A program made the translations under genes and the position numbers. Shown one piece after another: positions 7,000 to 42,435 of a stretch of DNA of 64,000 nucleotides (positions within the stretch are counted from its first letter, which is position 1; each line of letters opens with the position of its first letter). This DNA is from Nocardioides marmoribigeumensis (GTDB lineage: Bacteria > Actinomycetota > Actinomycetes > Propionibacteriales > Nocardioidaceae), in contig NZ_JAVDYG010000001.1 of assembly GCF_031458325.1 (NCBI RefSeq), forward strand, positions 3,844,001 to 3,908,000, given 5' to 3'. The notes under the pieces were generated by a model. It was not told the DNA's origin and ran no database searches. It saw nothing but the letters and a program-made list of their open reading frames with translations.

Positions 7000-7119
7000 C
7001 TTCCTGCCCCCCGCTCGGACCTGCTCCCATCCAAGCGTTGCCAGGCCCCGAGGTCGACATGCGGAGCCCCGCGTCCCCCTAAGGGGTTAAGGGCGACCGT
7101 GCCGGTAGGCTCGTCCATC

Positions 7120-40226: not shown

Positions 40227-41558
<1,332 letters not shown>

Positions 41559-41573
41559 GAGGGCCGCTTCAAA

Positions 41574-41659
41574 TTCACTAGGTACCTAGTGAAACTGGCA
41601 CTTCCCGAGCGAAACTTCGCTCGGGAAGTGACAACGTCACTAGGTACCTAGTGAAACTG
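41574..41659. repeat. Three-palindrome element with 23-bp direct repeats
   Basis: CACTAGGTACCTAGTG is the core of two near-identical palindromes, the first extending to 20 bp (41574-41593) and the second to 18 bp (41637-41654). They are part of 23-bp direct repeats (41575-41597 and 41637-41659). Between them CACTTCCCGAGCGAA (41599-41613) and TTCGCTCGGGAAGTG (41616-41630) form a perfect 15-bp stem with a 2-nt loop. Four CTAG tetramers occur in this 86-bp stretch. It lies between the 3' ends of hppD and the amino-acid ABC ATPase gene. It could be a bidirectional terminator, operators or a small mobile repeat. Confidence 0.9.
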
Positions 41660-41670
41660 CACCCAGCGGC

Positions 41671-42435
41671 TCAGAGGACCTTGGAGAGGAAGGACTGGGT
41701 GCGCTCGTGCTGGGGGTCGGCGAGCACCTCGCGGGGGTCGCCCTCCTCGACGATGACGCCGCCGTCCATGAAGACCAGCTTGTCGCCGACCTCGCGGGCG
41801 AACCCCATCTCGTGGGTCACGACCATCATCGTCATGCCCTCGGAGGCGAGGTCCTTCATCACCTGCAGCACGTCACCGACGAGCTCGGGGTCGAGCGCGC
41901 TGGTCGGCTCGTCGAAGAGCATCATCTGGGGCTCCATCGACAGTGCCCGTGCGATCGCGATGCGCTGCTGCTGGCCTCCCGAGAGGTGGGCGGGGTAGGC
42001 GTCCTCGCGCTCGGCCAGGCCGACCTTCTCGAGGTTCTTGCGCGCGATCGCGACCGCCTCTTCGCGCTTGCGGCCCTTGACCTTCTCCTGGGCGATGCAG
42101 AGGTTGCGCATCACGGTCAGGTGGGGGAAGAGGTTGAACTGCTGGAACACCATGCCGATGCGGCTGCGGACCTTGTCGAGGTCGACGTCGCGGTGGGTGA
42201 TCTCCTCGCCGGCGACGAAGATCGTGCCCGACGTGGGCTCCTCGAGCCGGTTGATGCAGCGCAGCAGGGTCGACTTGCCGGACCCGGAGGGTCCGATCAC
42301 GCAGACCACCTGACCGGCGTCGACGGTGAAGTCGATGCCCTTGAGCACCTCGTTGTCCCCGAAGTACTTGTGCAGGTCCTGCACGTCGATCGCGTGGTCG
42401 CCGCGCGCCTGCGGCGCCGTGTTCTTCTCGGACAT
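41671..42435 (-). CDS. Polar amino-acid ABC importer, ATP-binding protein (GlnQ-like)
   Basis: A 254-aa ATPase. Walker A is [13 protein letters not shown]-loop [14 protein letters not shown], signature [15 protein letters not shown], Walker [17 protein letters not shown] and H-loop [12 protein letters not shown], all typical of GlnQ/HisP. The start codon overlaps the permease stop (TGATG-type coupling). It drives uptake of a polar amino acid, possibly glutamine, glutamate or an aromatic compound given the tyrosine-catabolism context. Confidence 0.95.

Follow-up and report, generated by a model that had tools for sequence, protein, structure and literature searches.

What is the nested array of palindromes that fills the spacer between two convergent genes of Nocardioides marmoribigeumensis, and how did it come to lie there? 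The locus sits in a 64,000-nt stretch of the genome (the window; all positions in the feature list are counted from its first letter). A first-pass annotation, made from the sequence alone, offered three readings of the element: a bidirectional terminator, paired operator sites for a TetR/MarR-like protein, or a small mobile palindromic repeat. These readings make different demands on copy number, position relative to genes and behavior between species, which are considered in turn below.

Anatomy of the window copy

The element is flanked by a 4-hydroxyphenylpyruvate dioxygenase (HPPD) gene and an ABC transporter ATPase gene, which converge on it. The 16-bp core CACTAGGTACCTAGTG is called P, the hairpin beside it H, and the second end found in single units, described below, B. 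The features are as follows.

40335–41558, plus strand: HPPD gene, matching TIGR01263 over the cut-off; stop at 41558
41561–41670, no strand: whole doublet P-H-P with its outer arms, nearly filling the spacer between the stop codons
41576–41591, no strand: P1, the core CACTAGGTACCTAGTG, within a 20-bp palindrome (41574–41593), 17 nt past the HPPD gene stop codon
41599–41630, no strand: H, the central hairpin, whose 15-bp stem is perfect and capped by a 2-nt AC loop
41638–41653, no strand: P2, the second core, within an 18-bp palindrome (41637–41654), 17 nt from the ABC ATPase stop on the minus strand
41671–42435, minus strand: polar-amino-acid-type ABC transporter ATP-binding protein gene, best model GlnQ (an assignment that does not reach the NCBIfam equivalog cut-off); stop at 41671

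The architecture claimed at first pass holds up on inspection: by eye, the 20- and 18-bp palindromes have centers 62 bp apart and lie within an exact direct repeat of 23 bp, and the perfect 15-bp stem with its 2-nt loop stands between them. H can be extended to 18 pairs with one mismatch (41596–41633), and 31 bp separate its dyad from that of either P. A repeat search reports the element as a 28-nt repeat at 93% and as an inverted repeat with 62-nt arms that are 79% complementary. At up to three mismatches, the two cores are the only P matches in the window (mean of 0.03 in shuffled sequences), and the right outer arm of the doublet, GAAACTGCACCCAGCGG, matches the outer arm of other copies, CGCTGGGTGCAGTTTC. 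The tetramer CTAG, said at first pass to be rare and to occur four times in the element, is indeed depleted in the window, which has a GC content of 72.6%: it occurs 16 times, as against 62.9 in dinucleotide shuffles, and four of the 16 are here. The folding z-score is −13.1 on the plus strand and −10.5 on the minus strand. Eight Rfam matches to the element, with E-values up to 1, all fall under their gathering scores (the best reaching 29.9 bits against 200). The earlier judgment that neither neighbor accounts for the element was right.

A repeat family beside stop codons

The first-pass annotation suggested searching the genome for the core and held that a unique element at which RNA 3' ends showed plain termination in both directions would be just an unusual terminator. 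The element turned out to belong to a multi-copy family: in the window's own genome (G000; 4,440,796 bp in one contig), P occurs at 62 places with up to two mismatches, 56 of them exact, against a single place for a reversed control. A BLAST-type search with the 99-bp element scored 39 candidate places in G000, which are covered by 34 fetched stretches (numbered L, as are those from other genomes). The 62 cores make up 40 units, of which 22 are doublets (P-H-P) and 18 are singles (P-H-B). P spacing is 62 bp in every one of the 22 doublets; across the fetched loci H stands beside all 62 cores with dyads 31 bp apart, and no H was found there without P. Because P is itself palindromic, direct and inverted doublets are not separable from P alone. 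The sequence of B after H reads approximately (C)CAGTTYTSCCGC, often together with GTACG[AC]CG; in single units this motif lies at +69 to +81 in 10 of 18, farther away in two, and was not found within 200 bp in six, its chance rate being 233 in 6800 random 60-bp stretches from the same loci. Possession of a B end of their own would speak against the singles being decayed doublets, as singlets of REPINs, more variable than the doublets, are reported to be. Placement of the units along the contig leaves a 1.04-Mb stretch, 2.45–3.49 Mb on G000:C1, without any element; a gap as large arose in 100 of 20,000 random placements of 35 merged loci.

The units hug gene ends. Genes were called with a home-made codon model for which the 64-kb window served as training set. 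In G000, 40 of the 62 P sides look toward a stop codon (39 at 6–19 nt and one at 88 nt), 18 toward a gene start, and four are unclear. Stop codons lie on both sides of eight of the 22 doublets, on one side of ten and on neither side of four. At 14 loci fetched from a congener (G002), which were chosen by exact P and do not constitute a random sample of its copies, 20 of 26 P sides face a stop (18 at 11–23 nt, two at 52 and 89 nt), five face a start and one is unassigned. The two most distant sides, at L069 in G000 (88 nt) and L111 in G002 (89 nt), have an extra hairpin, seen by eye, between the stop codon and P. Since most of the assignable P sides are at gene 3' ends, the TetR/MarR-like operator proposed at first pass is disfavored.

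Across the 22 G000 doublets, the columns of P are near-invariant and both the outer and the inner arms vary. Variant cores number four among 44 in doublets and two among 18 in singles, too few to compare. Some of the changes keep the palindrome perfect, as GGGCCC at 7012 and 2393325 in G000 and CG...CG in Nocardioides speluncae (L097) do, and some others break it. A core that varies so little while its arms drift, palindrome-preserving changes and dyads at a constant 31-bp spacing are what recommend a second protein-binding interpretation, in which the three dyads, on about the same helix face, form an array of sites for a dimeric DNA-binding protein, be it a regulator or a nucleoid protein. 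We consider such an array distinctly improbable: the sites lie mostly beside stop codons and not at promoters, every P in the fetched G000 loci is accompanied by H, and a one-sided change breaks perfect palindromy in 39 of 58 listed P sites of G002.

Distribution, turnover and copying

A search of related genomes, also advised at first pass, was carried out and places the family in very few of them. Exact P is present in two of five genomes of the genus, and a 20-mer with two free central bases in three of the 294 genomes in the family; both counts include the genome of the window. N. speluncae is among the carriers. In a contig scan that may omit records of the window's genome itself and of its closest kin, all 22 stretches with the pattern came from N. 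speluncae YIM ART13. At up to three mismatches, P has 60 matches per strand in G002, 53 and 54 on the two strands in G277, and none in five other genomes. Since the match coordinates coincide, G277 is probably the N. speluncae genome, and the family surveyed would then be the Nocardioidaceae. N. speluncae has an H of different sequence, yet P and the 62-bp spacing are kept, a conservation of P that is partly built in because these loci were located by exact P; in its ten doublets, H carries an internal mismatch block. The single core change seen at 39 of the 58 listed G002 sites is mostly CACTGGG or CACCAGG or their complements and therefore marks P subfamilies in that genome. No P match was found in the plasmid and phage collections. 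A phage or plasmid origin was considered and set aside: the sole match in a viral contig, inside an ORF of an A+T-rich contig and without H, was taken as chance. Among the matches listed by a search of open-licence PMC literature, none concerned this family.

Some G002 copies depart from the common plan. At L130 (G002:C1:696744), a lone P without H lies about 20 nt past a TGA stop and is followed by GGTACGCCG. In the units at L114 and L118, the right arm of H (GGTTTCGTGCGGGAAGC) recurs in the end that follows H; a single left arm could then pair with either right arm, in an attenuator-like manner.

Comparison of G000 with G002 reveals turnover. Eleven G000 loci have a syntenic counterpart in fetched G002 stretches; G002 carries the element at three (L073, the right side of L074 and the first unit of L077) and lacks it at eight (L069, L070, L071, L072, L075, L076, the second unit of L077, and L078). 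At four of the eight, L070, L072, L075 and L076, the left flank alone is conserved, and at L069 and the second unit of L077, the flanks are separated in G002 by 2 to 4 kb of other DNA. The reverse case is found at 672406, where G002 has a unit beside the same gene that has none in G000. Another congener, G004, also has the HPPD and ABC genes as a convergent pair, with a 42-nt spacer that holds an unrelated hairpin and no element. Element-free sites thus exist, but their spacers are too diverged to show an insertion junction, and no target-site duplication was seen by eye on the copies. Candidates for a locus shared by G000 and N. speluncae were dismissed, as the blastn flank matches (L054/L096 and L062/L104) are not at the same place relative to P. 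A different palindrome array in G002 (such as GCGAAGCGTCGCGTGTGTACGC, three units) lies near places that have P-H-P in G000, at L134 (G002:C1, about 927055) and L137 (about 1008266), and is found once directly past the HPPD stop codon.

Where the two genomes share an element, its two copies are no more alike than ordinary copies within one genome. At six shared ends, orthologous copies differ at 10, 10, 9, 16, 15 and 13 of 46 positions (mean 12.2). The same G000 copies differ from other G000 copies by medians of 9, 10, 12, 12, 14 and 9, and the same G002 copies from other G002 copies by medians of 9, 9, 6, 8, 6 and 8; the nearest copy in the own genome differs at 2–8 positions in G000 and at 0–2 in G002. 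The average G000–G002 pair differs at 15.1 positions, so that orthologous copies are somewhat closer than this. The nearest half-unit is within the own genome in 63 of 66, 29 of 30 and 29 of 30 cases; the distance set holds 66 G000 half-units against 62 P sides since a few wrong-direction halves passed the hairpin filter, and these are included in the genome means and nearest-neighbor counts, one such row being left out of the orthologous comparison. Because orthologous copies are no closer than copies within a genome, the units have been renewed or converted in each genome, or have arrived independently at the same place.

Taken together, these observations indicate that the window element is probably a member of a dispersed, REP/REPIN-like palindromic family whose copies have been placed at gene 3' ends in a small number of Nocardioidaceae. 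The first-pass proposal of a small mobile palindromic repeat therefore survives as far as a dispersed, copied, lineage-specific family is concerned, but no transposase, target-site duplication or transposition event was found. The copying could proceed by gene conversion, by template switching at hairpins or through an enzyme acting in trans. In G002, the sequence after H is alike in doublets and singles up to GGTTTC and then diverges, a pattern that suggests recombination at short GTTTC/GAAAC words. More tentatively, some factor might recognize P and copy P-H to gene ends, in which case Nocardioidaceae would possess a REP-like system independent of RAYT. Through such a system, genes that have nothing else in common would receive their 3'-end hairpins from the same spreading element, and ongoing conversion would keep its copies uniform.

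Several candidates for such a partner were tried. A RAYT/IS200 protein was rejected on the grounds that the Y1_Tnp domain (PF01797) is found in none of ten genomes, including G000, G002 and G277; the same search was positive in five of 14 control genomes. Facing units enclose an AbiEi-like gene in G000 (333975–335191) and again, at a different locus, in G002 (999482–1000746); this gene is not a specific partner because homologues of the enclosed protein are present in six of six genomes, three of them without P. An AbiEi/DUF559 nuclease was discarded likewise, DUF559 being found in all six genomes, of which three lack P. The AbiEi_4-domain proteins at these non-orthologous loci (L047:3064–4140 and L115:2166–3113) are 66% identical, and the L047 protein is the sole homologue found in G000. 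Genes were examined around 28 of the 58 listed G002 P sites, the gene neighborhoods of N. speluncae being left out.

The enclosed genes bring up a transposon-like alternative. MITEs are short, non-coding, dispersed elements with inverted-repeat ends, and all four properties apply to the P family. The P-H ends would then be transposon termini, facing pairs (P-H-B...B'-H'-P') the full-length elements, with or without cargo genes, and doublets their collapsed forms, with gene ends as preferred targets. Eight of the 18 G000 singles do form four facing pairs (L047, L052, L063 and the first pair of L077), in which the distance between P starts ranges from 193 to 1463 bp, and six of the 14 fetched G002 loci (L113–L117 and L120) hold such pairs as well; H always points inward, and some pairs enclose genes (AbiEi-like, sigma factor, methyltransferase), ordinary genes being enclosed in two of the four G000 pairs. 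The inward orientation, however, follows equally from each P facing the stop of its own gene, and for the other ten G000 singles the fetched DNA shows no facing partner. The middles of four short G002 pairs are mutually unlike, and no transposase was found among five enclosed and ten B-side proteins, nor a same-ended transposon in the genes examined. A MITE is an unlikely explanation. The stretches L074 and L114, which share their right flank, do not help it: G000 has extra genes on the left, before the shared gene. A simple integron-like cassette was rejected at the same place, this best locus not being a clean pair of empty and filled sites.

Transcript ends and relation to known systems

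If copying placed the family at gene ends, what might it do there? A scan for consensus terminators, applied to two stretches, returned no sites at the window copy and none in L049, a single unit. The window copy has no T-tract and is therefore not a canonical intrinsic terminator, so that of the bidirectional terminator proposed at first pass the position, hugging the stop codons, is borne out and the consensus signal is absent. In the 18 singles, the eight bases after H hold 52 T by hand count, about 2.9 each against about 1.1 expected from base composition; this T-run is not kept, by eye, in several N. speluncae copies. Two successive hairpins are predicted for the single units in most of the folded G000 and G002 copies, the predicted fold being different in L049 and two N. 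speluncae stretches. At some loci, this place is taken by different hairpins in relatives. Proximity to stop codons, the two predicted hairpins and the hairpins that take the same slot in relatives point to a role at the mRNA 3' end, and a function of the element at gene 3' ends is a likely prediction from these sequence features.

The same features could be read as a plain bidirectional terminator that arose where it now stands, without any special copying. Strong hairpins directly past the stop codons of convergent genes, the alternative hairpins of relatives and the excess of T after H all agree with it. As a whole explanation, it is nonetheless largely refuted by the repeat family, since similar sequences of about 90 bp at some 40 places are left unexplained and orthologous copies are no more alike than paralogues. 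The empty scan at the window copy and the two loci where another hairpin already stands between the stop and P (L069 and L111) also count against it, and we give such an in-place origin very little chance.

A copied family acting at gene ends can be pictured as follows. When a unit is transcribed from the adjacent gene, the P hairpin would form, followed by the strong H hairpin; the two may define or protect the mRNA 3' end through termination, pausing or exonuclease protection. The doublet would serve two convergent genes at once, as a putative bidirectional 3'-end module, and P, the less changeable part, is presumably recognized by a sequence-specific factor, either for copying or for function. 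Textbook termination is no better placed here than pausing, factor-dependent termination, exonuclease protection or an effect on translation termination like that of REPs.

How does the family compare with known systems? With bidirectional intrinsic terminators it shares a hairpin directly past the stop codons between convergent genes, but the window copy is without a T-tract, P is conserved in sequence, and the units belong to a multi-copy, homogenized family. The resemblance is closest to REP, BIME and REPIN sequences, which are associated with RAYT transposases in enterobacteria and Pseudomonas: these are likewise short, intergenic, lineage-specific palindromes near gene 3' ends, and they too form doublets of fixed spacing that are able to fold into one long hairpin (PMC3116915, PMC3733652). 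In E. coli, REPs are described as stalling ribosomes when no more than 15 nt separate them from a stop codon (PMC12306157). The distance of P to the stop is in about the same range. The differences are several. The P family has no Y1_Tnp partner in the genomes tested and, by eye, no constant GTAG tag, a CTAG inside P being constant instead; a third palindrome, H, is placed between two P; single units have a second end of their own; and there are about 40 units here, whereas more than 100 copies are usual for REPs (PMC2817692).

CGTC-tagged REPs, which occur mainly in alphaproteobacteria, offer a further parallel: no dedicated transposase is known for them either, and between convergent genes they lie mostly less than 20 bp from both 3' ends, as illustrated for two species (PMC3733652). 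They differ in their tag, since the P family has, by eye, no CGTC at a constant place. The term Actinobacteria is absent from the text of that paper (PMC3733652). How REP-like sequences spread without RAYT is an open question that was raised for the CGTC group (PMC3733652), and the P family makes a compact test case for it, with 40 units in this genome, an unvarying arrangement of three palindromes, syntenic loci of two congeners that differ in whether they carry the element, and a conserved core that could serve to capture its binder; because there are very few carrier genomes, a search for a shared partner gene should be feasible. Set against these systems, the P family, without a RAYT partner and without a GTAG or CGTC tag, is a real, dispersed family of the REP/REPIN-like kind.
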